Of a DNA stretch of 64,000 bases, positions 10,646 through 62,014 are shown piece by piece. The notes beneath the pieces are model-generated. The model saw nothing but the letters and a program-made list of their open reading frames with translations. It was not told where the DNA came from and ran no database searches. Position 1 is the stretch's first letter; every line of letters starts with the position of its first letter. A program made the translations under genes and the position numbers. The stretch comes from Motilimonas sp. E26 (lineage in GTDB: Bacteria; Pseudomonadota; Gammaproteobacteria; Enterobacterales; CBDFNC01): assembly GCF_021278025.1 (NCBI RefSeq), contig NZ_JAIBHJ010000011.1, positions 62,001 through 126,000 of the forward strand, read 5' to 3'.

Positions 10646-12136
10646 TTAAGAAGAACAACTTAGAGGGCGTTGTTGTGTGCCTTTGGCTGGTGGCTGGCTA
10701 TATTGATGATGTTCCATTTGCTCATCAAAAGGGTGTTGCAGTAAGGCAAATAGCCGCGCAATTTCGTTATAGTCACCTTGCTCTGCTTGTTCAATGGCGG
10801 CTTGGGCCAAATGGTTACGCAAAATATACTTAGGGTTGTGACTTAACATACTGAGCTTGCGCGTTGAAGCTGGCATACTGTCTTGGCTAAGTCTTAGCAT
10901 ATAGCGATCAAACCACTCACTAAAGCCCCGTTGGTCTTCAAATAGATCATACATTTGTTCCGGCCCTACAGTGTTAGCGAGGCGGCGAAAGAAACAAGTG
11001 TAATCTACTTGATTAGCGGCCAGTAAATTAAACAGGGTTCGAATTAAATCGCCATCTTGCTCTTGGTGTTCACTAAACCCAAGCTTGCTTTGCAGTAGGC
11101 TGCGGTATTGGTGGACGAGTTGCGGTTCAAACTCAGCCAGCGCATCATTTAAGCTTTGGTTTGAAATGAGCGGTGTTAGCGCATAGCCCAAAGCAGATAA
11201 GTTCCACTGTGCTATGTCGGCTTGGCGATTAAAGGCATAACGTCCTTCGTAATCAGAATGATTACAAACATAGTCGGCTTGGTAGCTATCAAGGAAGGCG
11301 AATGGACCATAATCAAAGGTTTGCCCGAGTATCGACATATTATCTGTGTTCATTACCCCATGACAAAAGCCAATCCCTTGCCACTGTGCGATTAACGTGG
11401 CAGTGGTGCTTATTACTTGTTTAAATAAGGCCAAATAAGGCTCTGGTTCGTTCACTAGGTGAGGGTAATGTTGTGCGATCACCGCGTCGGCCAACACTGG
11501 CAATAGGTGATGTTGATTACTGTGGTACAGATATTCAAAATGGCCAAAGCGGATATGGCTTTCACTGACTCGAACTAGGGCGGCACCTGTTTCTAGTCGT
11601 TCACGCCAAACTGGCTCTTCGCTGTCAACTAAGCAAAGGGCGCGGGTTGTAGCAATGCCCAGATGGTGCATCGCTTCACTGCACAAGTACTCTCGAATAC
11701 TTGAGCGTAATACCGCTCGGCCGTCGCCCTGACGTGAATAAGGCGTTTTTCCTGCGCCTTTTAAATGTAAGTCCCAAATAACGCCATTATCACTTTTCAC
11801 TTGTGCCAATAATAAACCGCGACCATCGCCTAAAGCGGGGTTGTAAATGCCAAATTGATGGCCTGCGTATTTCATCGCTAAAGGAGCCATGTTGTTGAGC
11901 AGTGTATTGCCTGAAAACAGTTGAGTAAACTTGTCTCGCTGTAGTTCATTGATATCTAAATTTAATAATCTGGCGACATCGGTGTTAGCGTGTACTAACT
12001 TCGGGCGTAACAATGGCGTTGGTATGACTTGTTGATAGAAGCTATCGGGTAGTTGACTAAATAAGGTGACGTAGTTGAGCTGTTCTAAGGTGTTATTCAT
12101 GGGCACATCACTAGCAACGTTCATTGCCCTTATCAT
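10646..12136 (-). CDS. selO: Protein adenylyltransferase SelO (YdiU/UPF0061)
   Basis: This is a SelO-family pseudokinase of about 480-496 residues. Family blocks are clear: MKYAGHQFGIYNPALGDGRG, KGAGKTPYSRQGDGRAVLRSSIREYL, and FCHGVMNTDNMSILG with FDYGPFAFLD. SelO transfers AMP from ATP to protein hydroxyl groups using a flipped ATP. The protein ends in RPLSCSS, keeping the C-terminal cysteine used in redox control in E. coli SelO. Possible starts are 12136, 12124 and 12100. The first two overlap the upstream kinase gene, and 12100 gives the N terminus most like the family. It is the last gene of the T6SS operon, an unusual place for selO. Confidence 0.9.
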   Translation of the reverse strand: MIRAMNVASDVPMNNTLEQLNYVTLFSQLPDSFYQQVIPTPLLRPKLVHANTDVARLLNLDINELQRDKFTQLFSGNTLLNNMAPLAMKYAGHQFGIYNPALGDGRGLLLAQVKSDNGVIWDLHLKGAGKTPYSRQGDGRAVLRSSIREYLCSEAMHHLGIATTRALCLVDSEEPVWRERLETGAALVRVSESHIRFGHFEYLYHSNQHHLLPVLADAVIAQHYPHLVNEPEPYLALFKQVISTTATLIAQWQGIGFCHGVMNTDNMSILGQTFDYGPFAFLDSYQADYVCNHSDYEGRYAFNRQADIAQWNLSALGYALTPLISNQSLNDALAEFEPQLVHQYRSLLQSKLGFSEHQEQDGDLIRTLFNLLAANQVDYTCFFRRLANTVGPEQMYDLFEDQRGFSEWFDRYMLRLSQDSMPASTRKLSMLSHNPKYILRNHLAQAAIEQAEQGDYNEIARLFALLQHPFDEQMEHHQYSQPPAKGTQQRPLSCSS

Positions 12137-12899
12137 AACTCAGTGGTGAGTTAAATCGACCCGAATGATGTAAGGATAGAGCATATGCTTGATTAACCAA
12201 TAATTGATAACACGTTCGACTATTGCTTGGGTAATGGGGATGTCGCCTTTGCTGAGCGGCAGATAGAATATCTAAGCCGTTAAATGGGTGCATGCCTTGC
12301 GCTGATAACACAGTGACAGCGAAGGCATACCAATCGTGACAGGGCCGAATAATACCTTGTCCGGTTAATAATTCAGGATGACAAAAATGCGGGCTGAAGC
12401 CGTATTGCATGACGCGAGATAATGACTCGCCATGGGGCAAGCTAGCGCCAAAGTCCAGCAACACAATTTGCTTTCGCATTACTAAAATATTACTTGGTTT
12501 AATATCACCGTGATTAAAACCGAGTTGATGGCAATGACTGAGTGCTGTAGCCAGCTGGGGCTGCCAATCAAATAAAGGGGCTCGATTTTGCCTAATCAAG
12601 TTTGACAGAGGCTCGCCTTTGAGCCAAGGCGTGAGCAAATAATAGCTGTTGTTTTGTTCAAAGCTGCTGATATATCGAGCTATGTAGGGTAGGGGAGCAT
12701 TGGATAAATGCTTCAGAGCTTGAATTTCTCGCTGTAGTAATTGTTTCTCAGTTTGGCTACGGGCTAGTTTTATTTTTACCCAGCCATGTTGCGCATGCTC
12801 ACCGACATAAATATTCGGTGTTAATGGGGTCGGCGCTTGCAGCCATGTCATGGTTGCAAGCGCTGTCGGTAGCGGATCTGTGATTGCTACTTTTAACAT
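12111..12899 (-). CDS. T6SS-linked serine/threonine protein kinase (PpkA/Stk-like)
   Basis: This 262-residue protein is a compact kinase domain. The catalytic loop HGDIKPSNIL (around residue 131) and the DFG metal-binding motif (around 150) are intact, with an alpha-C glutamate in LLQREIQALKHL. The glycine-rich loop is poorly conserved. There is no membrane helix or sensor extension, unlike PpkA of Pseudomonas. The gene begins directly after the tssM stop codon and ends around or inside the selO start. In T6SS clusters such kinases phosphorylate the FHA protein and TssL to switch on assembly; that role is inferred from tagH in the same operon. No PppA-type phosphatase is in the window. Confidence 0.8.
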   Translation of the reverse strand: MLKVAITDPLPTALATMTWLQAPTPLTPNIYVGEHAQHGWVKIKLARSQTEKQLLQREIQALKHLSNAPLPYIARYISSFEQNNSYYLLTPWLKGEPLSNLIRQNRAPLFDWQPQLATALSHCHQLGFNHGDIKPSNILVMRKQIVLLDFGASLPHGESLSRVMQYGFSPHFCHPELLTGQGIIRPCHDWYAFAVTVLSAQGMHPFNGLDILSAAQQRRHPHYPSNSRTCYQLLVNQAYALSLHHSGRFNSPLSYDKGNERC

Positions 12900-16320: not shown

Positions 16321-17481
16321 CTATTGATTATTGCTATTCTGAGCTTGAATGATCATCGCATTCACCCCGTCATGTTGTTGATACCAATCCTTTATTTGGT
16401 TGGCTTGCTGCTTGCTATCGGCACGAAGCACAACGCGATAGTATTGCTTATAGGGTTGCACATAAGGCTGGTAACTCGATGGAGAGAGAGACTTAGTAAA
16501 TGCTAAGGCACTTTTTCGCCTTGAGAAGGTGGCAAGCTGTACTAGCCAGTCAGTGTCTAACAGGGTGTTTGAAGAGCCACGTTTTGGGGCACTGGTTAAA
16601 TCTTGGTCGGTACTAATATATATAATGTCATTTTGCTGACCCGATACAATGTAGCGTGGACTATAATTGGTTAGTCCTATGAAATCACGCGCTCGCTGCT
16701 CGGTGGTGTTTTTGTACCAAAAATGCGCTAAGCCGATGCTGGTTATGATTAAGCCACTAAAGAATAAAGTCGTTAGAAAATAGCGCTTACGTCGACTAGG
16801 GTTACGCACTTTCGGTAAGGTTGCGTTGAGTTGACAACGTAACCCTGTGACTGGGCGATGTTGATGCATTTGCAGCTCAATTTCATGCATAAAAATGGCT
16901 AATTGATCGGCATTGGCATCGCGATATTGACCTTTAAAGCCAATACTTAAAAATAAATAAATGATTTCAATTAAATCAATTAATTTACTAGGTTGACGCA
17001 AGGCCTTATCTGCTACGGAATAAAATAGCTCGCCGCCATTTCGCATGCCAAACAACTCACTGAGTAAGGTCTTGTTCTCCCATTTGCTTTCTTCTCCCCA
17101 TGGGCTGTATTGAATGAATTCATCCAGTACCACTGCAAATAAAAAGCACAGTTTGTCGATAACGGCAACGGGGTAGGTAAGCTGCGCGCCGCGTTGCTTT
17201 AACTCATTTATTTGCTCAATAAGATGACGGCGAAATTCAGCAATATTATCAGGTGCAGGCAGTTGTGACAGTTTTAGTACTAGTCCCAGCAGCTCACTAC
17301 TAATATTTAACAGCTGATTTTCTGATTTATCAAAATGGCGCAAAAATTCTATTTGGCCAATATCGTCTTGAACCAAAATCAATGAATGGCCGATCTCGTC
17401 AATGCCTTGTTCCGCCGACTCTGTTTGAGTCGATTGTTTATTTTTAACTTGCGTAACTTGATCTAAAAAATCCATCGCCAT
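16321..17481 (-). CDS. tssL: T6SS protein TssL (DotU) with C-terminal SPOR-like domain
   Basis: This 386-residue protein has the cytoplasmic DotU helical domain (residues about 45-210, with FAVVLDEFIQYSPWG and LFLSIGFKGQYRD), one membrane helix near 232-254 (FLTTLFFSGLIITSIGLAHF) and a periplasmic extension. The last about 80 residues, starting WLVQLATFSRRKSALAFTK and ending around YYRVVLRADSKQQANQIKDW, have the shape of a SPOR peptidoglycan-binding domain. TssL anchors the T6SS baseplate and membrane complex; tails that bind cell wall are known in specialised TssL proteins, most often of the OmpA type. The SPOR assignment is by pattern only. Confidence 0.87.
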   Translation of the reverse strand: MAMDFLDQVTQVKNKQSTQTESAEQGIDEIGHSLILVQDDIGQIEFLRHFDKSENQLLNISSELLGLVLKLSQLPAPDNIAEFRRHLIEQINELKQRGAQLTYPVAVIDKLCFLFAVVLDEFIQYSPWGEESKWENKTLLSELFGMRNGGELFYSVADKALRQPSKLIDLIEIIYLFLSIGFKGQYRDANADQLAIFMHEIELQMHQHRPVTGLRCQLNATLPKVRNPSRRKRYFLTTLFFSGLIITSIGLAHFWYKNTTEQRARDFIGLTNYSPRYIVSGQQNDIIYISTDQDLTSAPKRGSSNTLLDTDWLVQLATFSRRKSALAFTKSLSPSSYQPYVQPYKQYYRVVLRADSKQQANQIKDWYQQHDGVNAMIIQAQNSNNQ

Positions 17482-18841: not shown

Positions 18842-19327
18842 TTAAAACACTGACCACCAAGGCTTTTTCTTTTCTTGGCTAGTGAGTAAGACGGTATTGC
18901 CTGAAATATTTAGAAACAGACGTTGCTCAGCGGTTTCCGGTAAGGCTATGACAGTGCTGGCTTGGCTATCTTGATAGTTAGCAAATTCGGCAAACACCGC
19001 AATAAAGCGGCTGTCACGGTGAATGTCTAAGGTCATACTCAATTCCCTCGCCGGTAGAAAGGGAGCAAGCAGCTGTTTACTTACTAAATCTTTGGCCAAC
19101 ACTTGATTATCATTGTGATACAGCTCGATATAACTGGCTTGTTTAAACGCTTGTTCGTCTCGCAGTTGATAAAGTCGCAGTACCACAGGGTTGGCATCGT
19201 TATCTTGATAAGGATTGATAAGTCCATCACTTGATAGCGTTAATTGAAAGGGGGTTGCAATTGGCTCTGGGGCTGATGAGCATGCGCTAAGCAACCAGAT
19301 ACCTATACTAATGAGTAATAGCCGCAT
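18842..19327 (-). CDS. tssJ: T6SS outer-membrane lipoprotein TssJ
   Basis: This 161-residue protein has a lipoprotein signal with lipobox LLSAC (cysteine at residue 16) followed by serines, so it should be lipidated and moved to the outer membrane. The mature part is a small beta sandwich with the family-like VVLRLYQLRDEQAFKQASY stretch. TssJ binds the periplasmic end of TssM. Its start codon overlaps the last base of tagH, indicating coupled translation. Confidence 0.9.
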   Translation of the reverse strand: MRLLLISIGIWLLSACSSAPEPIATPFQLTLSSDGLINPYQDNDANPVVLRLYQLRDEQAFKQASYIELYHNDNQVLAKDLVSKQLLAPFLPARELSMTLDIHRDSRFIAVFAEFANYQDSQASTVIALPETAEQRLFLNISGNTVLLTSQEKKKPWWSVF

Positions 19328-20304
19328 TATTTTTTCATTCCTTGTTTTTGCATATTTTCCATAAACAGGGCTTTAAACTGACGGCGATAATCCCCTTTGT
19401 TTTGGCGTTTATTAAAATGAGAACGGTAGATCCGCCAATACTTTTTTTCTTTGTTACTAAACAGGCCACCACTAACAAAATCGGCAAATAAGCTTTCAAG
19501 ATGGCTAGGTGAAAACTCATCGAGAAATTGATCGAGCGTTTCTTCAAGCACTTCAAATAGCATTTGATGCTGTAACTGAGGATTTTGCAAAAAGCGTTGA
19601 TTTTCTTCGGTCAGCGACAGCAGTTGATCCACGCGCTCGGATAAATTGTCTTGCTCTGCACCTTGAATTGGGAAATATTGCTGACTGGCTGGCTCTGCAT
19701 TATTCTCTTTTTGACTACTGGTGATATTGTCAGACGCTGTGTCCGGAGCTAAGTAAGCTTCATCAGGCATTTCATCTTGACTAAAGTCTGCAAAAGGGTC
19801 TGAGTTAAAGGGATCGTCGCTAAATACGCCTTGAGCTGAAAATAGATGTTGTTCCGTGTTGTTACTGGCATCTGGGTTAGCGTCCACTTGTTCTAGAAAA
19901 TCGATGTCATCATCAGCCAAATCTAATGCAAAAGGATGACTAAATGGGTCACTTTCTTCCGCTTGAGTGGGGGCTACCGTTGGGGCACTATTAAGCGTGC
20001 TGACTAGCATAGTGTAATTAACTACTTGTATTACGTCGCCATCATTTAATAGGTAAGGCCGACCCTTTAATATCTTTTTATCATTGATGAGGGTTGCATT
20101 CGTGCTTTTATCGATAAGCTGGTACCCCCCGTTGTGTAGTGATATTTCAGCATGTAGTCGCGATATCATCTGGCTATGGTCTGGTAAAAATACATTGGCG
20201 TCGGGAGAGCGTCCGATGGTGCCGCCATTGGCGGGCAGGTGCACGACTCGGGCAGATAAGGTTTCTTCTGCTGGAACTTTAATTAGGTGAATACTTAAGG
20301 TCAT
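19327..20304 (-). CDS. tagH: T6SS FHA-domain protein TagH/Fha
   Basis: This 325-residue protein has an N-terminal forkhead-associated domain (about residues 25-100, with GTIGRSPDANVFLPD and SRLHAEIS, the phosphothreonine-binding loops), an acidic low-complexity linker, and a helical C-terminal domain typical of the TagH family (FLDEFSPSHLESLF). FHA proteins read threonine phosphorylation in T6SS posttranslational control. The kinase near the operon end is the likely writer. The gene lies four bases from the solute-binding gene upstream and overlaps tssJ by one base. Confidence 0.88.
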   Translation of the reverse strand: MTLSIHLIKVPAEETLSARVVHLPANGGTIGRSPDANVFLPDHSQMISRLHAEISLHNGGYQLIDKSTNATLINDKKILKGRPYLLNDGDVIQVVNYTMLVSTLNSAPTVAPTQAEESDPFSHPFALDLADDDIDFLEQVDANPDASNNTEQHLFSAQGVFSDDPFNSDPFADFSQDEMPDEAYLAPDTASDNITSSQKENNAEPASQQYFPIQGAEQDNLSERVDQLLSLTEENQRFLQNPQLQHQMLFEVLEETLDQFLDEFSPSHLESLFADFVSGGLFSNKEKKYWRIYRSHFNKRQNKGDYRRQFKALFMENMQKQGMKK

Positions 20305-20307
20305 AAC

Positions 20308-21042
20308 TTATTTCTCACAAGACGACACGGCAGCATTGAAATGCCCTAAAAAGTCAGGATACTGCTTTATAAAGTGATTTGAAAAGTACACGCCCATAGA
20401 GAGGGTTTCGACTAATTCCGATTGAAAATAATCCGCCTTTAGTCCGGCGTCTTTTAAAGTATGTTTGAATACTAGCTCATCTTCCAAAATGGCATCTATT
20501 TCTCTATTTTTTAATAGTTTTAATAAGGTTTTCGCATCCCTTGGCTTTTTCACTACGTTGTAGCCACCTCGTTTTAATTCAAACCATTTGTTGCTGCCAA
20601 ATTTGGCTGATACCCGTAAATCTAATTTGATTAAGGAGCTAGGCAAAGGTTTAACGCCGGTGGCAAAATACCAACTGATACGTTGCTGGGCGATGGGAGT
20701 CGATAATGTTGCGTATTCATCGCGCTCTTGGGTTTGAGCAGCAACAAAAAAACCATCTTGTTTTGCACTTTGTACTGCAAGCTGAGCTTTCTGCCAGCTG
20801 GTCATGGTGAGTTGGTAAGGTTGACCTAGCTTGCCTAAGGCGCATTTTACCTTGTTGAGTGCCGTACCACGCATTTCACCATCTTGATACACTTGGTATG
20901 GCGGCCAATCCTGTGTGGTGAGCATCAAACGGCTGGGCCCAGTCGCAGCCCAAGCAGTCGTCGGTAAGCTTAGTATTAATGTTAATCCACTCATGTGGAG
21001 TATAGTTTTGCTCAGGGTTGATATAGCGAGTACTCCATTCAT
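20308..21042 (-). CDS. Periplasmic solute-binding protein (SBP_bac_3 family)
   Basis: This 244-residue protein has a hydrophobic signal sequence ending in AWA, then a two-lobed binding-protein pattern: LTTQDWPPYQVYQDGEMRGTALNKV at the mature N terminus and DGFFVAAQTQERDEYATLS further on. These are typical of family 3 amino-acid or polar-compound binders and of their relatives without transporters. No ABC permease or ATPase is nearby. It sits between two T6SS genes in the operon, one base after the ABC_sub_bind gene. A role as ligand sensor for the adjacent membrane fusion protein is an inference from position. Confidence 0.78.
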   Translation of the reverse strand: MNGVLAISTLSKTILHMSGLTLILSLPTTAWAATGPSRLMLTTQDWPPYQVYQDGEMRGTALNKVKCALGKLGQPYQLTMTSWQKAQLAVQSAKQDGFFVAAQTQERDEYATLSTPIAQQRISWYFATGVKPLPSSLIKLDLRVSAKFGSNKWFELKRGGYNVVKKPRDAKTLLKLLKNREIDAILEDELVFKHTLKDAGLKADYFQSELVETLSMGVYFSNHFIKQYPDFLGHFNAAVSSCEK

Positions 21043-21043
21043 C

Positions 21044-22030
21044 TTATTTTCCTATTACTTCCGCAATTTTTAGTACTGAAATAGGCGGATAGTAATCTAA
21101 TGATTCTGCGGCACTTAAATTAACGATATAGCTATATTGGCTGAGCCCTTCAATGGCTATCTCTGTTGGTTGGTAGCGCTTGCTTAAAATTTGTTCGGCT
21201 TTAAATCCGGCAAATTGACCAACACTATAATAGCGTCCCACCACGCCTAATAAAGCTTGATGATCACGAATAGGGGTCTCGGTTGCAGAAAAGGTAGGGA
21301 TCCCAGCTTGATGAAGTTGTTCAATCACAGATTTCCCTTGAGTAATAATAAAAGAATCAGGCGGTAAATATGCCATCTGGATCCGGTGTTTTTTCATTAG
21401 TTTAGCAATATGTGCAACTGAATTGGGATCCGGTTTACCGTCTACGACACTCAGTGAATAGGAAAAAATTGATTTTTTATATTGCGCGCCCATTTCCACC
21501 ATGTTTTCGGTTACTAAAGATGAGTTACTTTCCAATGGGTTAAAGATAACGCCGATACGATTGATATCACCAAGCATGTTAATGGTATTGAGTTGAGTGG
21601 AAAGGGGAACAATGTGGGTGACTCCTGTGAACAGCTCATGACCTTGATCGAGCTTTTCTGTTAATTGTGAGCCCACAGGATCCGTTACCACGCTAAATAC
21701 CACAGGAGCAATTTTTTGCTGTGTAAATTCACTTGGAGCAAAATGGGTACCTAGCAGTGCTAAGGTGATAGTAGTGCCAAACGAGTAGACTAGATCTGGT
21801 TTTAACTGAGTTAACTGCGCAATATTTTGTTGTAAACTTGCTTTGTCGCCATTGGCATTAAGCAAGGTAAAGCGCACGTCGCGCTGGCTTTTCAAATAAT
21901 CCATGAAGCCGCGTTCGGCGTCAGTTGTGCCACGCCACAGTAACATCACGACATGACTAGGCTGAGCCCAAGTCACAGGGCTTAAGACGAGACCAAAAAT
22001 AAAGCTGGTTAATACGAGAATACGCTTCAT
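21044..22030 (-). CDS. ABC_sub_bind (TrpX-like) periplasmic binding protein
   Basis: This 328-residue protein has a signal peptide ending near TWA, then a periplasmic-binding fold of the type I kind: VVMLLWRGTTDAERGFMDYL, the strand-turn DLVYSFGTTIT, and the hinge blocks VVFSVVTDPVGSQL and GVIFNPLESNSSL. This matches the ABC_sub_bind family (PF04392; TrpX and relatives bind amino acids). Its ATG overlaps the stop of the upstream sensor/MFS gene by four bases (ATGA), so the two are translated together. No cognate ABC transporter lies in the window. The ligand is unknown. Confidence 0.8.
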   Translation of the reverse strand: MKRILVLTSFIFGLVLSPVTWAQPSHVVMLLWRGTTDAERGFMDYLKSQRDVRFTLLNANGDKASLQQNIAQLTQLKPDLVYSFGTTITLALLGTHFAPSEFTQQKIAPVVFSVVTDPVGSQLTEKLDQGHELFTGVTHIVPLSTQLNTINMLGDINRIGVIFNPLESNSSLVTENMVEMGAQYKKSIFSYSLSVVDGKPDPNSVAHIAKLMKKHRIQMAYLPPDSFIITQGKSVIEQLHQAGIPTFSATETPIRDHQALLGVVGRYYSVGQFAGFKAEQILSKRYQPTEIAIEGLSQYSYIVNLSAAESLDYYPPISVLKIAEVIGK

Positions 22031-24591
22031 TTACCTTGCTCCAGTTTTCTTTTATCAAAGCTATCAAATATCATGAATAAACTGATCAGAGCTAACGAGC
22101 TGGCCAGCAACACTAGGCCAAATGCGATGATCGTTTCGTTAAAGCCAAATAGACTTAAGCATAAACCGGCCAACAGTGGACCAGATACATTGCCTATGCG
22201 TTCGGTTAAACGAAAGATACCGATGATTTTTCCCTTATCTACTTGGCTAGAAAGTGAGCGTTCTACAATTAAAGGAATTTGCGGTGAGACGCCGATGCCG
22301 TGGGCAATGCCGATAGCGATGACTATCGCTAATAGCCCCAGAGGTCCAGGCATGTAATCGATGCTAAGTAAAGCAATGGCGGAGAGGAGTCCACCAATAA
22401 AAACAAAGGTTAATTTGCTTTTGAGCTTATCGACTAATATTGCACTAAGCGGCGAAATAATGATGATGGCTAGTCCATAAGCCATCATAATACGGCCTGA
22501 TGCCGCGCTGCTTTCGCCTAGATGTTTAAGGTAAACTGGGCAGATGTAATATAAAAAACCCGTGAGCACAATTTTTGCCGGAATAGCGCTAAAGAGCGAA
22601 ATTAGAGCAAAATATTTATTGCTAAATAAATATTTAAAGTCGTTAAGTGCGAGGGGCTTTTGGCTTAAATTAAGCTGCTTTTGTTTTTCAAAGAACACAG
22701 TTACCAGTATCACGCTGGCAATGGCCATTAATGCCGATAGTAAAAAGGTGGCAGAAAAGCCAAGTTTTTCCGCTAAAATGCCACCAATGGCAGCACCGCA
22801 TAATGAGCCTGAGAAAAACGCCGACAAGAAAGTGGCCATCCCCTTAGTACGGTTATTATCATCTGTAGTATCGGAGACATACCCCTGGGCAGAGATAAAC
22901 ACGATACCGTAACCGACGGCAGTGAAGGCGCGAATGATGATCAATTGCGGTAAACTTTGTGCCAGTGCGGTAAATATTAATCCCAGTGCGGTAATCACGC
23001 CGCCAACGATAAAGGCTTTGCGACGACCAACTTTATCAGACCAATAACCTGCAAATGGCAAGGATATCGCCCATACCAACATAAATAGTGAAATAGGCAA
23101 ACTGGTGATGAGCGACGGTGATATCCAACTACTTTGAAATTCGAACGAATTTACAAAACTCGGGAAAAATGACAGTGAACTAGCCTCAGCAAACACTAAT
23201 AGAAACAGAGGAAGACGTACAAAACTCAACTGTTGCTTGCTGAGGACTTCAGCCTTTTGGTCTTGGGATATTTTATCCATTGCTTGGTTAATGCCGTGTT
23301 GTAAGCGGCCAATTTCGTCATTGGCACTGATGTAACCGCGGCTAGAGAATTGCTCTCTAATGGCTTTGTTGAGCATTCTTTGCAGTTGTCGCCATGGTGA
23401 AATAATGGTGAACGCGCACAGAAATAGCAAAATTTCGGTGACCACTAAACAAGAAGCAATCAGAATTGTGACCATATCTAACAGGCTTTCTTTGAGCATG
23501 TTAGTAATGGTATTGCCATCACTGATTATTTTTATCGACGCTTGGTTATTTTGCAGTGGTACTTGGTGAGCTAAAATATTTTTTTGCTCAATGGGTAGAC
23601 TTGGGTATTGCAACCATACTGTATTTTGAGCCGTTAATTGTACGCCGAGAATCTCAGGATGGTTATCGGTGTAAAAGGCGAATTCTTGCTCTAGGCCTTT
23701 TAATTTAGTCAGTGGTACGCCGTAGCTTAAAACTTGGTTGATTGTTTGACTGAGGGTATTGGCGATAACCTGAGATTTATATTCGAGTTCAGGCTGATAT
23801 TGCTTTGCAAAATAGGCCATTGATTGATAGGAGGAACCAAGATTACTAAGTACCGTTAAGATAAACGCAAGGCCTAAAATTAACCAAGGAAAGCGTTTAA
23901 CTTTAAAGCGAGCAAATTTAGTCGTTTCTTCTTTCGACAAAATGTTAAGGTTTTTATTAGCGTCAAATAGATGCTGTTTTATTTCGTCACTGGAAAGCTG
24001 TTCTACATCTCCTAATGCTGCAGCTGCGCGTTTCACGCGACGTAAAATACCTGACAAGATAAACTTTAAACATATAAAGCCAAACAAGGTGCATCCCAGT
24101 ACCCAAATCGCCCCATAGTAAAATTGTTGCGTACGCAGAGCTGCTTGTTTGTCATTGAGGCGCTGACTATCGTAATAAAGCGCTAGCTGACCCTCTAGTT
24201 GGTTGAAAGCATTATGAATGGGCAGGCTGAGTAATCGGTCTTGTGCTTTAGGTGGGTTACCTCCTTGAAACAATGCATTGCCTTGGGTATCCCTCACTTG
24301 AATAGAGGTGATGCCCGGCACTTGTTGTTGCTGTTTGATGAGTAAAGTCTCAATATTGTTGATGCTGGCAAGGGGAAGCCCTAAGCCAACGGTATTATTG
24401 ATGGTGTGATGGGTCTCAGCCAGAATAATTTGATAAACAGAGTCTGATGTTTGCGTCAGGCGCTTCTCAAAATTAATGTAGCTTAACGTGCTATTTAGAC
24501 TAACCGAGAACAGTAGTACCATAAAAATGGCAAAGGCTAATTTGCTTCTTAACGACAGCTTTGACAGCTTAAAAAACAATGATTGTAACAA
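22027..24591 (-). CDS. Double periplasmic sensor fused to an MFS transporter
   Basis: This 854-residue protein combines two sensor modules and a transporter. Module one has membrane helices near residues 18-38 and 158-180 flanking a periplasmic domain of about 120 residues. Module two has helices near 232-252 and 372-395 around a second domain of similar size, followed by a HAMP-like helix pair (about 398-448). From about 459 onward lies a 12-helix major facilitator domain with motif A in GYWSDKVGRRKAF (about 515-527). There is no kinase, cyclase or methyl-accepting domain. The binding-protein gene downstream overlaps it. The arrangement suggests transport gated by a periplasmic signal; this is inference. 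Confidence 0.8.
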   Translation of the reverse strand: MLQSLFFKLSKLSLRSKLAFAIFMVLLFSVSLNSTLSYINFEKRLTQTSDSVYQIILAETHHTINNTVGLGLPLASINNIETLLIKQQQQVPGITSIQVRDTQGNALFQGGNPPKAQDRLLSLPIHNAFNQLEGQLALYYDSQRLNDKQAALRTQQFYYGAIWVLGCTLFGFICLKFILSGILRRVKRAAAALGDVEQLSSDEIKQHLFDANKNLNILSKEETTKFARFKVKRFPWLILGLAFILTVLSNLGSSYQSMAYFAKQYQPELEYKSQVIANTLSQTINQVLSYGVPLTKLKGLEQEFAFYTDNHPEILGVQLTAQNTVWLQYPSLPIEQKNILAHQVPLQNNQASIKIISDGNTITNMLKESLLDMVTILIASCLVVTEILLFLCAFTIISPWRQLQRMLNKAIREQFSSRGYISANDEIGRLQHGINQAMDKISQDQKAEVLSKQQLSFVRLPLFLLVFAEASSLSFFPSFVNSFEFQSSWISPSLITSLPISLFMLVWAISLPFAGYWSDKVGRRKAFIVGGVITALGLIFTALAQSLPQLIIIRAFTAVGYGIVFISAQGYVSDTTDDNNRTKGMATFLSAFFSGSLCGAAIGGILAEKLGFSATFLLSALMAIASVILVTVFFEKQKQLNLSQKPLALNDFKYLFSNKYFALISLFSAIPAKIVLTGFLYYICPVYLKHLGESSAASGRIMMAYGLAIIIISPLSAILVDKLKSKLTFVFIGGLLSAIALLSIDYMPGPLGLLAIVIAIGIAHGIGVSPQIPLIVERSLSSQVDKGKIIGIFRLTERIGNVSGPLLAGLCLSLFGFNETIIAFGLVLLASSLALISLFMIFDSFDKRKLEQGK

Positions 24592-24601
24592 AGTTGCTTA
24601 T

Positions 24602-24621
24602 CCGCCGGTGTTGGCCGGCGG
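24602..24621 (-). promoter_or_regulatory. GC-rich hairpin between clpV and the sensor/MFS gene
   Basis: CCGCCGG pairs with CCGGCGG around a six-base loop in the short gap after clpV. There is no T-run, so it is more likely an mRNA-stability or processing element than a terminator. Confidence 0.4.
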
Positions 24622-24628
24622 CTCCCAA

Positions 24629-27256
24629 TTAATTAATCGTTAATGCGAAGTCAGAGCCATCACTGGCTACCGAAACTTGTACATGATCGATACCTAGGGC
24701 CTGACTCAAGCGGGTAATGCACTGTTCGGCTAGTCTTGGCATTAATGAGCGATTAATAATTTGCTCTACTGCGCGCCCTCCTGTGGTTGGGTCTGTATTT
24801 TTTGCTACTATGTAGTCAACAAATGCTTGATCCCAGACAAAGCTAGCTTGGTATTGGCTGGCCAGTTTTTTCTTGATCCGATTTAAGGCTATGGCGGTAA
24901 TTTTGCCTAACTCTTCATCATTAAGCGGGTAATAAGGAACAATTGTGGTTCGACCTAAAAATGCCGGCTTAAAGTAATGCTGTAGATCTGGGCGAATTTG
25001 TTCAAGTAAGGCATCATTATCTAAGCGATTTTCAGCTTGGGCGCAGGCATCGCAAATGGCTTGGTCGGCTGCATTTGACGTCATGATGATTATCGTGTTT
25101 TTAAAATCGACGGTGCGTCCTTCGCTGTCTTTGATATGGCCTTTGTCGAAAATTTGGTAGAACAAATCATGTACACCAGGGTGCGCTTTTTCCATTTCAT
25201 CCAGTAACAGTACCGAATAAGGATTCCGGCGAATGGCTTCAGTTAAGACGCCGCCTTCACCAAATCCGACATAGCCTGCAGGAGAGCCTAGTAGCATTGA
25301 AATCTTATGCTCTTCTTTAAATTCGGTCATGTTGATAACGGTCAGATCATTACTACCGCCGTATAATTGCTCTGCTAATGCCATGGCCGTTTCGGTTTTA
25401 CCTACACCACTGGGACCACACATTAAAAATACACCGATTGGCTTGCGATTATCGGTTAAGCCCGCGCGGGAAATGCGAATGCTTTTGGCAAGCTCGCTTT
25501 TGGCCACATCTTGCCCGATCACACGTTTGTCTAGCTCTGCTTCAAGACTTAATAGTTTGGCTATTTCATCGCTCATCATGGCCCCGGCAGGGATCCCCGT
25601 CCAGTTGGCGATCACTTGAGCGATAGTGTTGTCATCAACCATGGCATTGACTAACGGTTCATCACCTTGAATCTCGTGTAGCTGATTAGTTAACTCAGCC
25701 ATTTGTTGCTGCAAGGTAGAATTGTCTTGATTCGATTCAGAATTATTATGATTGTCACCAATAGCTTGCTGTAAATCTTTAATCTGTTGAACTAATTCAA
25801 TTTCTTGCTGCCATCGAGTTTGATATTTCTCTAGCGCTATTTGTTGCTCTGCAATGTTTTGTTGCAGCGCTTCTATTTCATTTTGGCCTCGGTTAAAGAG
25901 GGCGTGCTCTTTTTCTAATGCAGCCAATTCATTTTGTTGATAGCGAATGGTTTGCTCTAACGTTTCAATCACTTCAGGTTTTGCACCTTGGGTGAGTGCA
26001 ATGCGGGCACTGGCTGTATCGAGTAGGCTAATGGCTTTGTCTGGCAATTGACGGCTAGGTAAATATCGAATGGATAGATTCACTGCGGCATCGATGGCTG
26101 ATTCGGCAATAAAAGCGCCATGGTGCTTCTGTAGCGATTGAGCGATGCCACGTAACATTTGCATGGCATCGGCGGCGCTAGGCTCTTCAATACTCACCAC
26201 TTGAAAGCGACGGGTGAGAGCGGGGTCTTTTTCAAAGTATTTTTTGTATTCCGCCCAAGTGGTGGCGGCAATGGTTTTAAACTCGCCGCGCGCTAAAGCC
26301 GGTTTGAGTAAGTTAGCGGCATCATTTTGACCCGCAGCACCGCCCGCACCGATTAGGGTGTGCGCTTCATCGATAAAGACAATAATAGGCTCAGCGGAGT
26401 TTTTTACTTCATTGATAACATCTTTTAAGCGGTTTTCAAATTCACCTTTTACGCTTGCACCAGCTTGTAATAAGCCTAAATCAAGAGAGTGAATCTGCAC
26501 ATCTTGCAGCGCGCTTGGCACTTCATTAGCGGCGATACGCAACGCTAAACCTTCCACTACCGCCGTTTTACCTACGCCAGGCTCACCGACTAAAATGGGG
26601 TTGTTTTGTCGCTTACGGCACAAGATGTCGATGGCTTTGCGTACTTCAGCGTTGCGCCCTGATATAGGGTCGATAAAACCGTCTTTGGCTTGTTGCGTTA
26701 AGTTAATGGTGTATTTACTGAGTGCTTCTTTACCTGCTGGCGTGGTATCCGTCATTTCACCTTGGGTTCCCGCAGTAGCATTGCTTGCACGGGTAATGGC
26801 GGTTTTGTTGATCAAAGCCTGCAGCGACTCGAGGGAAAGTTGTGCTAACGATTGCAGTTTGCAGCTTTGTACGCCCATGACATTTTGTTGTAGCAAGGCT
26901 TGAATTAAATGCAAGCTAACAATTTGGCCATGGCCGTAGTTAACTGATGCGATCATCCAACTGTCTTTAATCAGTTCGGTGAGGGCATGACTTAACGTGG
27001 GTTGCCCTTCATTGCCTTTAGCAAAGCGCTCGATCAAGGACAATAGCTCACTGACAACCGCGTCTTGATTAATATTTTGACTGGTAAATAAGCTATTTAG
27101 CTTAGCATCGTTTTGCTGAATTAATTGCAGTAGCCAATGCTCGGTTTCTATCGCTGGCACACCTTGGTTCATGGCTGCGCCTGCGGCAGCTTCCAGTGCT
27201 TGTTTTAAGTCACTGTCGAGTTTACTAATCAGTTTTGTTAACGCCACTTGTGTCAT
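24629..27256 (-). CDS. clpV: T6SS sheath-disassembly ATPase ClpV (TssH)
   Basis: This 875-residue AAA+ protein has the ClpB/ClpV layout: an N-terminal repeat domain that binds the sheath protein TssC, a first AAA module with GEPGVGKT (around residue 223), a coiled middle domain, and a second AAA module with GPSGVGKT (around 613). ClpV hexamers disassemble contracted TssB/TssC sheaths for reuse. Pairing with the T6SS genes and a short middle domain favour ClpV over ClpB. It is followed by the hairpin at 24602-24621 and the sensor/MFS module. Confidence 0.93.
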   Translation of the reverse strand: MTQVALTKLISKLDSDLKQALEAAAGAAMNQGVPAIETEHWLLQLIQQNDAKLNSLFTSQNINQDAVVSELLSLIERFAKGNEGQPTLSHALTELIKDSWMIASVNYGHGQIVSLHLIQALLQQNVMGVQSCKLQSLAQLSLESLQALINKTAITRASNATAGTQGEMTDTTPAGKEALSKYTINLTQQAKDGFIDPISGRNAEVRKAIDILCRKRQNNPILVGEPGVGKTAVVEGLALRIAANEVPSALQDVQIHSLDLGLLQAGASVKGEFENRLKDVINEVKNSAEPIIVFIDEAHTLIGAGGAAGQNDAANLLKPALARGEFKTIAATTWAEYKKYFEKDPALTRRFQVVSIEEPSAADAMQMLRGIAQSLQKHHGAFIAESAIDAAVNLSIRYLPSRQLPDKAISLLDTASARIALTQGAKPEVIETLEQTIRYQQNELAALEKEHALFNRGQNEIEALQQNIAEQQIALEKYQTRWQQEIELVQQIKDLQQAIGDNHNNSESNQDNSTLQQQMAELTNQLHEIQGDEPLVNAMVDDNTIAQVIANWTGIPAGAMMSDEIAKLLSLEAELDKRVIGQDVAKSELAKSIRISRAGLTDNRKPIGVFLMCGPSGVGKTETAMALAEQLYGGSNDLTVINMTEFKEEHKISMLLGSPAGYVGFGEGGVLTEAIRRNPYSVLLLDEMEKAHPGVHDLFYQIFDKGHIKDSEGRTVDFKNTIIIMTSNAADQAICDACAQAENRLDNDALLEQIRPDLQHYFKPAFLGRTTIVPYYPLNDEELGKITAIALNRIKKKLASQYQASFVWDQAFVDYIVAKNTDPTTGGRAVEQIINRSLMPRLAEQCITRLSQALGIDHVQVSVASDGSDFALTIN

Positions 27257-29995: not shown

Positions 29996-30407
29996 CCTCT
30001 AAAGTCGCGCTAAGATCGCTAAGCTTGATTTTGGAATCAAATACTAACTCTTGTAAGCCGGCTTCGGTTCTGAGTTCGGCGAATAGGGTAAAGCAAATTG
30101 CGTTTTTAGATTCATCTCGCTGTTTGAGCTCTACACTCACTTTATCAAGCCTTGGTTCAAAGGTTTTGATCCAGTGCTCGACTTGATATGCGAACTGTTG
30201 GTTATCCAAATTAGCTTGCAGTAGTTGCATATCTTCGATACCAAAACGCATACTTGATGAGCTAACTTGTTGGAAGCTATCGTCGATTAGCATGAGTGGG
30301 GCTTCACTGGTTAATAATTGGCTTAAATGGTAACGCACGGATTCCACTTCGCGTTGACTTGGGCTAATACCGTCTTTGGTGTTGATGAAGGTTTGCCAGA
30401 AAGACAT
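29979..30407 (-). CDS. tssE: T6SS baseplate protein TssE (gp25-like)
   Basis: This 142-residue protein is a member of the gp25/TssE family, the baseplate component that seeds sheath polymerisation. The region VRYHLSQLLTSEAPLM and the later TFEPRLDKVSVEL match the fold. Its start codon shares one base with the tssC2 stop, and its end overlaps tssF. The conserved EPR motif required for sheath initiation is visible in FEPRL. Confidence 0.85.
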   Translation of the reverse strand: MSFWQTFINTKDGISPSQREVESVRYHLSQLLTSEAPLMLIDDSFQQVSSSSMRFGIEDMQLLQANLDNQQFAYQVEHWIKTFEPRLDKVSVELKQRDESKNAICFTLFAELRTEAGLQELVFDSKIKLSDLSATLEDEDLV

Positions 30408-31819
30408 TAGCTGGCCTCTGCTAAATCAGTGGTTAGCACAACTTCACCACTGAAATGATCAAACTGATACTGCGGGATGAGCCTTAAATCACAGTACAGC
30501 GCGCCAACTTCATCGCCTGCTTCTCTTACTGTGACTTTCGCATAGCGTAGTGGGTATTTGGCTAAGGTTGCTTCATCGGCATAATCAACATTACTAGAAA
30601 GCTTTTCAATCCAGTTGGTTAGGTAGGTTTCACACTCTTGTGCACTATTAAAACTGCCAATCATTTCACGCACTTGCACCTTGAGATAATGGGCAATACG
30701 ACATGAAATTAAAGTGGTTTGTAGTTGCGTGAGTACTTTGTCGTTGTCCGATTCGCCTGCTTGCCAAATAGAATTGTTACCATTAAAAAAGAACTTATTG
30801 GTGAGAGGACTTAAGCTCATTGGAATAAAGCCTTGCTGGGCATAGAAATTCGCTAGTTCGCCGAACAAACGTACATCTGGCTCGGGCTGTTTAAGTAATG
30901 CTGTTGCGATGCTTTCTTCGGGTAAATTGATTACCGCTCCTTGATATTTATCAGGCCAACGTGATTTTAAAAAACCAAACCAATTTAGGCGGTGATATTC
31001 GCGTAAAATGGTGCCAGCAAAAGTAAAGGCGGCACTGCCCCACAAGCTAGCGGTACCTTGGTTGTAAATAAAGCCAAGACCATGGTTTTTATAGCGCTGA
31101 CGAAGTTTAACGCGCGGCATTGCCAAGCAAATAAAGCGACTACTTGAGTGTTTGCGTAGCTTTTGCCACGCTAAGTAATCAGGGCCATTGAGCACCTTGT
31201 CAATACGTTGGGTATCTGATAACCAATCGGCTCCCTGTGCCGCGAAAAAGTCCAGCGCGGGTGAAAATATCATTGGGCATAAACAGGATTCACCTAATTT
31301 TGCGAGTAACTCTAAGGTATAAATGTCGTCAAAATCGCTGTCAAAATCGATGTCCATACTAATACTGTGAGCAAAAACCATGCACCCAAAAGGGTGGCCC
31401 CCTAAGGTGTTAAGTTCTTGATTCGCTATTTTATTGTATAGTTGACTCAGTTTAATTGAGTAAGATTGATTTAGATCGCTAGAGGTTTCAGCCCAACTCA
31501 TGTCGAGAAGCTTTACTTGTGCACGGCGATAGTTAACCGGTAGATGCGTTAAGTTATGTAGACTTAACCAATTTGCAGCCATCGCCTTATACTCTGGCGC
31601 GGCTAAAATAGCATCAAGCTGTTGCGATAGTTGTTGATCTATTGTGGTGATTAAGCGGCTTAAAAAGCTCATAAAGGTGCTTTGATTTTTAAGGGCGCTA
31701 GGAAATAACTCAGATACCAAAGATAAAGCGTCTGTTAAAAACCCTTGGTCATTGCTATCTAAATGATTGAATTTATATTGCCAGTCTGGTGCTAACTTCA
31801 TATATAAAATGGCCAGCAT
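30407..31819 (-). CDS. Second TssC-like sheath protein (TssC2)
   Basis: This 470-residue protein is a divergent copy of TssC, encoded directly downstream of it. Shared landmarks include FMSFLSRLITTIDQQLSQQLDAILAAPEYKAM near the N terminus, GGHPFGCMVFAHS against the TssC GGEPYGTFIGDY, and RFICLAMPRVKLRQRY against RYVTLTLPRTLARLPY. It lacks the first about 40 residues of TssC that interlock with TssB. It may be a specialised cap, tail-end or baseplate-contact subunit. The start may be 31819, inside a hairpin, or 31801. Confidence 0.8.
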   Translation of the reverse strand: MLAILYMKLAPDWQYKFNHLDSNDQGFLTDALSLVSELFPSALKNQSTFMSFLSRLITTIDQQLSQQLDAILAAPEYKAMAANWLSLHNLTHLPVNYRRAQVKLLDMSWAETSSDLNQSYSIKLSQLYNKIANQELNTLGGHPFGCMVFAHSISMDIDFDSDFDDIYTLELLAKLGESCLCPMIFSPALDFFAAQGADWLSDTQRIDKVLNGPDYLAWQKLRKHSSSRFICLAMPRVKLRQRYKNHGLGFIYNQGTASLWGSAAFTFAGTILREYHRLNWFGFLKSRWPDKYQGAVINLPEESIATALLKQPEPDVRLFGELANFYAQQGFIPMSLSPLTNKFFFNGNNSIWQAGESDNDKVLTQLQTTLISCRIAHYLKVQVREMIGSFNSAQECETYLTNWIEKLSSNVDYADEATLAKYPLRYAKVTVREAGDEVGALYCDLRLIPQYQFDHFSGEVVLTTDLAEAS

Positions 31820-31837: not shown

Positions 31838-33316
31838 TTAACCTGGGATCTTAGCAACCATTCGAACTGAGGTAGTCAGCTCTTCAAGTTGTAGCCATGG
31901 GCGTAAATGGGCGATAGCAGAGTAAGCGCCTGGACGGCCGGGTTGCTCTACTACTTCGATACGAGATTCCGCTAGCGGGGTTTTAGCACGTTGCTCATTA
32001 CCAATAGCACCTGAGTTGGTATATTGATCAATCCAAAGTTGTAGTTCACGTTGAATGTCAGGGGCTTCTAGGTTAGAGCCTAGTTTATCGCGACCCATGA
32101 CTTTTAGGTAATGGGCAATGCGACCACTGGCCATAATATAAGGTAAGCGTGCTGAAATAGCCGCGTTTGCCGTAGCATCAGGGTCGGTGTAAGTTTTTGG
32201 CTTTTGAGTAGTTTGGCCACCAATAAACACAGCATAGTTACTGTTTTTATAGTGCACTAGGGGTAAAAAGCCTAAATCACTCAGTTCTTTTTCACGTTCA
32301 TCGGTTAAGTTTACTTCCGTTGGGCACTGCTGCAAAATGTCGCCCGCATCGGAAAGATAGGTAAGGTTTGGTAGATTTTCTACTTTACCACCGTTATCTA
32401 AACCTCGAATTGAAGTACACCAGCCAGAGGCGGTGTAAGCTTGTGTCATTTTCAGGCCTAAGTCATAAGCGGCATTTGACCAAACTAGTTGAGAATTATC
32501 TTTCGGTTTTGGATTCCCGGCACTGTCAGTAGCTAATTCTTCATATGCAAAAGCATTAGTTGGTAAGCCTTTTTCACCATAAGGTAAGCGCGCTAAAGTT
32601 CGTGGCAATGTCAGCGTTACATACCGAGCATCATCACTTTCACGAAATGAGTTCCATGCAGCATAAGCTGGTGAGTCAAAACCAGCAGCAACAGGCTTAC
32701 CTTCATTAAATGTTGAAAAACTATTAAATTCAAACATTTCAGCGTTCGCTGCGGCAATAAATGGGGCATGACATGCAGCGGCTACTTCACCCATGTAACG
32801 AAGTAGGGCAACATCTTCATCCTTGGCGCTAAATTCATAATCACCAATAAAAGTGCCGTATGGCTCACCACCTGCAGTACCAAATTCGCCTTGATATAGG
32901 GAATTAAAAAGCGGGCTACGGTCGATAGCTGGGGCATCTTCAAACTGCTCCAATAACTCTTCTTGAGAGTAATCAACCATTTTAATTTTAAGCGAGCGGC
33001 CTAAGTCACTTTCTTTAACCAATTTTTGCAGGCCACGCCATGAACCTTCTAGTTTCTGAAAATCATCTTTTTGCATCACTTCCGATAGTTGATGCGACAA
33101 GCGTTTATCAATTTCGGCAATGGCATTTTCGATGGTTTTAGTAACGTTTTTGTCCCACGTTACTGTTCCGGCGAGTGCTTGTTCGGCCAGTACAGAGAAC
33201 AGCTCTTTGGTGGTGTCTGCTGGTGTTTGCGTAGTGGCTTCGATAGCGCGGTCTAGAAAGCTTAAGCTGCCTTCTGCTGCTTCGGCTTGTGTTTGCGTTT
33301 GGCTTTGTTCTGTCAT
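31838..33316 (-). CDS. tssC: T6SS sheath large subunit TssC (VipB)
   Basis: This 492-residue protein is the canonical TssC: ENAIAEIDKRLSHQLSEVMQ, FQKLEGSWRGLQKLV and the ARLPYGEKG region are all present. It pairs with TssB to form the contractile sheath around the Hcp tube. It follows tssB by two bases. Full length and without oddities. A hairpin overlapping the next start codon may lower expression of the downstream tssC2. Confidence 0.95.
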   Translation of the reverse strand: MTEQSQTQTQAEAAEGSLSFLDRAIEATTQTPADTTKELFSVLAEQALAGTVTWDKNVTKTIENAIAEIDKRLSHQLSEVMQKDDFQKLEGSWRGLQKLVKESDLGRSLKIKMVDYSQEELLEQFEDAPAIDRSPLFNSLYQGEFGTAGGEPYGTFIGDYEFSAKDEDVALLRYMGEVAAACHAPFIAAANAEMFEFNSFSTFNEGKPVAAGFDSPAYAAWNSFRESDDARYVTLTLPRTLARLPYGEKGLPTNAFAYEELATDSAGNPKPKDNSQLVWSNAAYDLGLKMTQAYTASGWCTSIRGLDNGGKVENLPNLTYLSDAGDILQQCPTEVNLTDEREKELSDLGFLPLVHYKNSNYAVFIGGQTTQKPKTYTDPDATANAAISARLPYIMASGRIAHYLKVMGRDKLGSNLEAPDIQRELQLWIDQYTNSGAIGNEQRAKTPLAESRIEVVEQPGRPGAYSAIAHLRPWLQLEELTTSVRMVAKIPG

Positions 33317-60784: not shown

Positions 60785-62014
60785 ATGCAACAAATTTTAG
60801 TGATTGGTTATGTTTGGCCTGAGCCAAATTCGTCAGCGGCTGGCAGCCACATGATGTCGCTGCTGCGTTTATTTAAACGTCAAGGCTGGCAAGTTACGTT
60901 TGCGAGTCCCGCGCAGCGCAGCGAACACATGGTTGATTTAGCCGAAGAAGATATTGCCAGCGAAAGCATTGCCTTAAATTGCAGCTCGTTTGATGCGTTT
61001 ATTAGTGAATTGCAACCTGACATGGTGATGTTTGACCGCTTTATGATGGAGGAGCAATTTGGCTGGCGGGTGGAAAAAAACTGCCCTAGTGCGCTGCGCA
61101 TTTTAGATACCGAAGACTTACAGTGCTTACGTAATGCACGCCATGAAGCGGTGAAAAAGCAACGCGAGTTGATGCCGCAAGACCTACATTCCGATCTGGC
61201 TAAGCGTGAAATCGCGGCCATTTACCGCTGTGACTTGTCTTTGATTATCTCTAGTTATGAAATGACGCTATTGGCAGAGACGTTTAAGGTGCCCTGCGCA
61301 CTACTGCATCATCTGCCGTTTATGATTGAGCCAAAAACGTCATCGCAACCTCAGCTTGGTTTTAACGAGCGCCAGCACTTTATTAGTATTGGCAACTTTC
61401 GGCATGCCCCTAACTGGGACGCGGTATTAGTGTTAAGCCAAATTTGGCCTGCGATCCGCAAGCAATGTCCAGATGCACAGCTGCATATTTATGGCTCTTA
61501 CCCACCGCCAAAAGCCACCGCACTGAATAATCCGAAGGCGGGTTTTTTAGTAAAAGGCTGGGCCGATGATGCCTTTGCTGTGATGGCAAAAGCCCGAGTG
61601 TGCCTTGCGCCGCTGCGTTTTGGCGCCGGTATTAAAGGGAAATTCATTGATGCTATGCAAATGGGCACACCGAGTGTGACCACAGATATTGGCGCAGAAG
61701 GCATGACCAACGGCATGCCTTGGCCGGGTTTGATTGCCAATAACGATGATGAGTTGATAGCGGCAGCGGTCGCTTTATATCAAGATGAAGCGTTTTGGCA
61801 GAAAGCCCAAGATGCCTGCCAGCCATTACTTGAGCAGGTGTATGACGCTAGCGAGTTAGGTAAGAGGCTAATTGCGCGTATTAATGCACTACAAGCTAAC
61901 TTGCCCGAGCACCGCTTAGCTAATTTTACTGGCGCGATGTTGCGTCATCACAGTATGAAAAGCACCCAATATATGTCGCAGTGGATTGAAGAGAAAAATA
62001 AGCCTAAACAGTAG
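60785..62014 (+). CDS. Glycosyltransferase (GT4-like)
   Basis: This 409-residue protein has an N-terminal Rossmann-like part (ILVIGYVWPEPNSSAAGSHM) and a C-terminal part with the typical SIGNFRHAPNWDAVL, a KGWADDAFAVMAKARVCLAPLRFGAGIKGK loop and an EAMxxGTPSVTT-like IDAMQMGTPSVTTDIGAEG, characteristic of GT-B fold transferases of family 4. The sugar and acceptor are unknown. It begins 14 bases after recJ and is probably co-transcribed with it. There is no polysaccharide cluster around it. Confidence 0.8.
   Translation: MQQILVIGYVWPEPNSSAAGSHMMSLLRLFKRQGWQVTFASPAQRSEHMVDLAEEDIASESIALNCSSFDAFISELQPDMVMFDRFMMEEQFGWRVEKNCPSALRILDTEDLQCLRNARHEAVKKQRELMPQDLHSDLAKREIAAIYRCDLSLIISSYEMTLLAETFKVPCALLHHLPFMIEPKTSSQPQLGFNERQHFISIGNFRHAPNWDAVLVLSQIWPAIRKQCPDAQLHIYGSYPPPKATALNNPKAGFLVKGWADDAFAVMAKARVCLAPLRFGAGIKGKFIDAMQMGTPSVTTDIGAEGMTNGMPWPGLIANNDDELIAAAVALYQDEAFWQKAQDACQPLLEQVYDASELGKRLIARINALQANLPEHRLANFTGAMLRHHSMKSTQYMSQWIEEKNKPKQ

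Follow-up and report, generated by a model that had tools for sequence, protein, structure and literature searches.

Gene content and organization of the locus

The stretch analysed, a 64,000-nucleotide window on contig NZ_JAIBHJ010000011.1 of Motilimonas sp. E26 (positions 62,001 to 126,000), contains a type VI secretion system (T6SS) cluster whose core genes, tssM to tssB, were confirmed by domain and profile matches. Three open reading frames (ORFs) lie on the minus strand between tssH/clpV, which flanks them upstream (24629-27256, minus strand; TIGR03345), and fha/tagH, which flanks them downstream (19327-20304, minus strand; FHA and T6SS_FHA_C Pfam domains). ORF F (22027-24591; 854 aa, TTG start) is predicted to encode a fusion of tandem sensors with a major facilitator superfamily (MFS) transporter, ORF B (21044-22030; 328 aa) an ABC_sub_bind periplasmic binding protein, and ORF S (20308-21042; 244 aa) an SBP_bac_3 periplasmic protein. 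F and B overlap by four bases (ATGA), which makes B translationally coupled to F, and gaps of one base (B/S) and three bases (S/fha) follow. This spacing agrees with the first-pass annotation, which had described three coupled genes between clpV and tagH, and the family identities that it had proposed were borne out by Pfam.

The same annotation had placed all three products in the inner membrane or beyond it. Hydropathy and an AlphaFold model both put F in the inner membrane, and signal-like N-terminal segments were found in B and S. Its remark that the binding proteins lack ABC partners also held: no ABC permease or ATPase gene was found among the T6SS genes around the block in the window, nor did any adjoin the binding-protein genes of the other T6SS loci that were inspected. 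The G+C and third-position G+C contents of F, B, and S were like those of the surrounding T6SS genes, so the three are not recent arrivals there. Sigma-70-like sites in the block were not above the level in shuffled sequences (12 seen versus 17.6 expected), and an internal promoter is therefore not indicated. The 37-base gap between tssH and F (24592-24628, minus strand) contains a G+C-rich hairpin with a 7-bp stem (-16.1 kcal/mol over a 52-nucleotide stretch) and no T-run; such a hairpin would not fit into the shorter gap of most Vibrio loci.

Distribution of the block among T6SS clusters

When the genome collection was scanned with an alignment of F, 24 loci were returned, all from Vibrio, which ruled out the possibility that the block is unique to the window or its genus. 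No T6SS sheath gene was found in three congeners. Apart from ends cut by contig boundaries, the 24 Vibrio loci and the window share the order tssB-C-C2-E-F-G-H-[F-B-S]-fha-J-K-L-M-ppkA (type A), where the bracketed letters are the block. One of these loci (L076) stops inside F at a contig end; another (L065) belongs to the type strain of Vibrio coralliilyticus, BAA-450, and has the block. No decay of the block was seen across the 24 loci. At the tssH-fha junction of type B clusters, F, B, and S are accompanied by an ATP-grasp ligase gene, and F is diverged. Such clusters were found in two genera (g2 and g12) and in a genome of a third (G370, genus g21), where the cluster lies on a small contig. 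In type C clusters (G141, G803, and a Vibrio megaplasmid), S stands alone at the junction, and F is split into F1 and F2, which sit with B just upstream of vgrG. In type D clusters (two genomes of family f3), S occurs alone at the junction; a distant F-like gene lies elsewhere in one of these genomes (G103). That the three genes recur in one order and between the same neighbors, in 24 Vibrio loci and in no fewer than two other genera, lies far outside what chance would give. The earlier suggestion that this non-core module may recur in related clusters is thus upheld by the conserved-block search, with diverged versions found outside Vibrio.

All four types contain two TssC genes. In the window, tssC (31838-33316) and tssC2 (30407-31819, minus strand; TIGR03355, 236.9 bits, below the cutoff of 271.5) stand in tandem and are about 22 to 23% alike, and this tandem pair marks the T6SS subtype that carries S. 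A further T6SS sheath gene lies elsewhere in the source genome (G000:C35:1557-2456). S was found at the tssH-fha junction in all 38 two-TssC clusters in which the junction is visible (23 named Vibrio clusters, the window, nine of type B, three of type C, and two of type D; genomes duplicating named ones were not added). The search of 198 genomes of the order gave 12 top matches to S (≥38% identity), every one in a T6SS cluster of types A to C, and those of the next matches (about 30 to 36%) that were inspected were lone genes, without a T6SS or a recognized F or B nearby. S, F, and B were all absent from six more distant outgroup clusters found with the TssC2 query. S is also present in clusters that have no F-B at the tssH-fha junction or no F-B at all; because it follows the T6SS subtype and not F, its more likely role is to serve the T6SS or to connect F-B with it.

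F and B outside this T6SS

In a sample taken evenly across the phylum, F was detected in 11 of 398 genomes (E ≤ 1e-28), and B adjoined it in all 11. F lay in a T6SS cluster in five of these genomes, the window counted, and in the other six no T6SS cluster was found within about 20 kb of F where the contig allows. The proposal that the genes belong with T6SS clusters therefore stood for the three-gene block and for S, neither of which occurs mostly outside them, and only in about half of the cases for F-B. F-B-S as a single evolutionary unit was ruled out: S goes with the T6SS, and F-B is independent. B adjoined F wherever the F family was examined, inside and outside T6SS clusters, with the exception of two distant F-like genes. 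In distant F-like fusions of family f3 (L006/L025 and L007/L026), a partner of 480 to 500 aa with no Pfam family replaces B.

Several loci, of type B T6SS clusters as well as outside T6SSs, carry an ATP-grasp ligase gene next to F-B (L023, 6026-7180; L027, 9536-10702; L116, 9019-10182; L161, 16958-18178; L164, 2340-3563; L142, 21762-23015). Two non-T6SS genomes (G919 and G713) have the order ATP-grasp-F-B, as in type B. In Azospirillum B510, F1-F2-B lies about 4 kb from tssA and is followed by GNAT and ATP-grasp genes, and Azospirillum brasilense has the same F-B/GNAT/ATP-grasp set with no T6SS genes nearby; the GNAT gene in Azospirillum stands between F-B and the ATP-grasp gene. No ATP-grasp gene was found in the window or in the Vibrio type. 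It is possible that the ligase helps to make a small-molecule product that F exports. In G515, F1-F2-B adjoins a very different T6SS, likewise with two sheath genes. In one genome without a T6SS (G879; L156, 995-5166), a gene for a HAMP-SpoIIE phosphatase overlaps the end of F2 by one base.

Phylogeny of F, B, and the T6SS

In the F tree, type A grouped with G515, type B with the non-T6SS genomes G919 and G713, type C with the non-T6SS genomes G344 and G604, and B510 with A. brasilense; long branches on some non-T6SS rows make exact placements unsure. Approximately unbiased (AU) tests on F rejected a clade of types A, B, and C (P = 3.9e-48) and a clade of types A and C (P = 0.001), which ruled out a single origin for all T6SS-linked F. 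The B tree agreed for the main groups, and type B was not cleanly apart from G919 and G713 there. In the T6SS tree (TssH, TssF, and TssG), the four types formed a single clade, ((A,C),(B,D)), which was fully supported against the outgroup. Set against the F tree, it means that related machines carry F-B of different ancestry, at two different sites. As judged from these trees, this T6SS gained F-B on at least three occasions, each an independent event of acquisition or replacement. So many gains are hard to explain without a functional reason, which points to a selected link between F-B and the T6SS. We estimate chance linkage at about 1% per event (40 kb in 4.5 Mb). F-B-S is thus an accessory module, real and conserved, that one T6SS subtype has acquired repeatedly.

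Predicted architecture of F, B, and S

F matched MFS_1 in Pfam (E = 1.6e-44), and its residues 395 to 442 matched HAMP (PF00672) at 21.6 bits, against a cutoff of 25. The AlphaFold model (predicted local distance difference test [pLDDT] score, 86.6; predicted template modeling score, 0.83) lays the protein out as two transmembrane (TM)-sensor-TM units, a HAMP-like linker at about 395 to 442, and a 12-helix MFS domain at about 455 to 853. Model helices 361 to 411 and 426 to 441 fit a HAMP helix pair. The sensor folds span about residues 80 to 140 and 300 to 358, the first being a helix and four strands after a long TM helix, and the two units form an internal repeat (BLAST E = 4e-5). We call them Cache/PDC-like, a label taken from the shape of the model alone. 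Plasmid-derived rows were left out of the alignments used with the structure models.

The best matches to the MFS domain, by profile and by Foldseek, were the H+-antiporter exporters VMAT2, NorA, MdfA, and SotB, and its 12-TM fold is closest to DHA1/SLC18 structures. The domain therefore does not make uptake the obvious direction of transport. MFS motif A is intact in type A F and lost in type B F; motif C (GPxxGG) reads GAAIGG in the window and GPAIGG in Azospirillum. Eight residues (E469, R554, Q569, K673, D721, R794, E797, and R798) were identical in 15 of 15 T6SS-linked F sequences and in most others, and only R554 was general among 12 unrelated MFS controls. They sit in TM1, TM4, TM7, TM11, and the 8-9 loop, and by analogy with the MFS fold most of them would face the cavity. 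The four basic residues among them suggest an anionic or zwitterionic substrate.

B matched ABC_sub_bind (PF04392, E = 3.4e-25). It also matched the TrpX model NF041285 (E = 2e-28) at 99.4 bits, far below the cutoff of 390, and so shares the fold family only; its relatives in the PDB include 3lkv and 3lft. R33, in the first ligand loop, was kept in 23 of 24 sequences. S matched SBP_bac_3 (PF00497, E = 3.5e-6), and its model (pLDDT, 88.9) shows a clean SBP_bac_3 fold, open and with both lobes intact, for which the closest structures by Foldseek were amino-acid-binding proteins. Residues C67, W83, Q87, R107, and C242 were invariant in the 21 T6SS-linked S homologues aligned. We take R107 to be the usual carboxylate-binding Arg of this fold and D189, by comparison with HisJ, to be the equivalent of the Asp that binds the alpha-amino group. 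Types B and C do not retain D189.

Proposed function and alternatives

What induces T6SSs is largely an open question, and a fixed S together with at least three gains of F-B points to an input in the form of a small molecule or to a partner in transport. Probably, the module serves to sense or move a small molecule at times when the cell uses its T6SS. We tentatively propose that this T6SS subtype has taken up, alongside S, a pair (F-B) that works as an MFS transporter/receptor under ligand control, and we give this reading a probability of roughly 0.42. B would bind a small ligand, probably carboxylate bearing, in the periplasm and dock on the two sensor domains of F; the change would be relayed by the HAMP-like linker and would alter transport by the MFS domain or its conformation. 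The constant pairing of B with F makes B the natural ligand-presenting partner. In HAMP proteins, the HAMP domain drives whatever follows it; because the MFS domain follows here, transport or transporter conformation would be the direct output. S, at the tssH-fha junction, would tie the periplasmic ligand level to the secretion machine, its attachment to the T6SS making it the natural link. The first-pass annotation had both binding proteins capture ligands and present them to F. This fits B and F better than S and F; S, which segregates with the T6SS subtype, does not look like an equal presenter.

The likely T6SS output would be through Fha and the PpkA-type Ser/Thr kinase of the window (12111-12899, minus strand; 262 aa; Pkinase E = 1.6e-24), a short protein with no membrane segment or periplasmic domain by hydropathy and thus cytoplasmic. 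A separate envelope reader encoded beside fha would stand in for the periplasmic domain that this PpkA lacks. Two further features were seen nearby: a gene for a SelO protein AMPylase overlaps the end of ppkA by 26 bases (10646-12899), and TssL (16321-17481) carries a C-terminal SPOR (peptidoglycan-binding) domain.

The gene block, the fold, the F-B pairing, the conservation, and the repeated recruitment are what the analysis shows. The HAMP-SpoIIE phosphatase coupled to F2, a predicted signaling output, was counted in favor of the ligand-controlled pair, as were the eight conserved residues of F, R33 of B, R107 of S, and the cytoplasmic PpkA. The ligand class, the contact between B and F, gating through HAMP, and the output to Fha and PpkA are the parts we infer. 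Several points weigh against this reading. Five of the six genomes with F outside T6SS clusters are complete and have no T6SS sheath gene at all, so the intrinsic job of F-B is not T6SS control. Type D clusters keep S without F-B. F has no output domain, its HAMP match falls below the Pfam cutoff, and the loss of motif A from type B F means that transport may be unneeded or may differ by type.

The same features are open to a reading in which transport itself is the output, with F exporting an anionic or zwitterionic small molecule, such as an amino acid or a dipeptide-like compound, alongside the T6SS under gating by B and with no regulation of the T6SS. The profile and fold matches to drug:H+ antiporters, motif A, the near-canonical motif C, and the tendency of HAMP to drive the following domain all speak for export, and the ATP-grasp genes by F-B in type B, in two non-T6SS genomes, and (with GNAT) in Azospirillum suggest a product that is made and exported. 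The Vibrio type and the window, however, have no ATP-grasp gene, type B has lost motif A, and the confinement of S to the T6SS and the repeated recruitment of F-B would go unexplained unless the product aids attack; we regard this reading as somewhat unlikely. A distinctly less likely arrangement separates the parts: S would be a structural or assembly factor of the subtype that has lost small-molecule binding, and F-B a separate regulated transporter. The strict attachment of S to the subtype and to one junction, its invariant cysteine pair (C67/C242), and the absence of D189 from types B and C would suit such a role, whereas the invariance of R107 and the intact, open two-lobed fold of the model speak against it.

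Nutrient scavenging, in which B and S would catch compounds from lysed prey or host cells for import by F, is suggested by the presence of two amino-acid-type binding folds and a transporter in a weapon cluster, yet it appears improbable. The MFS domain is of the exporter type, binding proteins rarely work with MFS importers, some clusters have S but no F-B, and sensor domains would be superfluous for uptake; in addition, T6SS2 of V. coralliilyticus, the system matched here by gene order, is directed at eukaryotic cells (PMC11371242). That the genes are passengers with no T6SS function is very improbable. F-B does occur elsewhere in genomes, but the lack of decay in 24 loci speaks against this, as do at least three independent insertions in one T6SS clade plus two unrelated T6SS neighborhoods, given a chance of about 1% per event for a random place in a 4.5-Mb genome. 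A bolder version of the ligand-controlled pair, which we consider unlikely though less so than a purely structural S, would make ligand-gated MFS proteins, with tandem sensors and a HAMP-like linker fused to the transporter and a periplasmic binding protein as the gate, a new transporter-receptor family. This T6SS subtype, one cluster of which matches the anti-eukaryotic T6SS2 of V. coralliilyticus, would have captured the family repeatedly, and a specific extracellular metabolite that S also reads would license assembly. Were the ligand-controlled reading correct, T6SS control would gain a branch that reads metabolites, in clusters found in marine animal pathogens, and MFS proteins under the direct control of sensor domains would be defined as a family.

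Comparison with known systems

None of the paper texts searched was found to describe the module; figures and most subscription papers lay outside the search, and an annotation in a figure is possible. The literature searched held nothing relevant on T6SSs with MFS or solute-binding genes or on MFS-HAMP fusions. Locus tag searches for T6SS1 and T6SS2 of Vibrio parahaemolyticus as described counterparts gave nothing on F, B, or S, and T6SS3 of Vibrio proteolyticus was not established as a counterpart, the text of PMC9545535 naming no such genes. V. coralliilyticus has two systems, T6SS1 and T6SS2, the latter anti-eukaryotic (PMC11371242). By gene order and elimination, we infer that the BAA-450 locus is T6SS2; between hcp (VIC_RS20130) and vgrG (VIC_RS20150) there is room for three genes, as in the window. 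The text of PMC11371242 describes effectors and conditions and not the F, B, and S genes.

As a transporter, F shares the 12-helix MFS fold with the DHA1/SLC18 H+ antiporters (NorA, MdfA, and VMAT2), along with a partial motif C and, in type A but not type B, motif A; it differs from them by its fused sensors, HAMP-like linker, partner binding protein, and unusual basic residues in TM7 and TM11. The closest system in its working is PgtABCP of Salmonella, a phosphoglycerate system in which a ligand sensor (PgtC), a membrane sensor kinase (PgtB), and an MFS transporter (PgtP) are likewise encoded together (PMC11077982). In that system, the MFS transporter has its own gene, which the sensor kinase regulates at the level of transcription (PMC11077982), whereas F joins sensor and MFS in one polypeptide, with no kinase or response regulator and with an MFS domain of the exporter type.

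Closest in role are TagQRST and TssW, and neither these nor PgtABCP has the F-B-S content. In the TagQRST-PpkA-Fha pathway of the Pseudomonas aeruginosa H1-T6SS, accessory envelope proteins encoded in the cluster likewise act upstream of the PpkA/Fha switch; one is an outer membrane lipoprotein, one is periplasmic, and the other two form an ABC-type pair (PMC11881912). F, B, and S are homologous to none of them. No TagQ, TagR, TagS, or TagT homologue was found at the site of the block, where the genes are MFS, ABC_sub_bind, and SBP_bac_3. The PpkA proteins studied read envelope partners through a periplasmic domain (PMC12607579, PMC11881912); unlike that of the TagQRST pathway, the PpkA of the window has none. 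In Acidovorax citrulli, PpkA has such a domain and works together with TssW, an envelope protein whose gene lies between ppkA and fha (PMC12607579). TssW, which promotes T6SS assembly, is like S a subtype-specific exported protein encoded beside fha (PMC12607579); S differs from it in being an SBP_bac_3 binding protein that comes with F-B.

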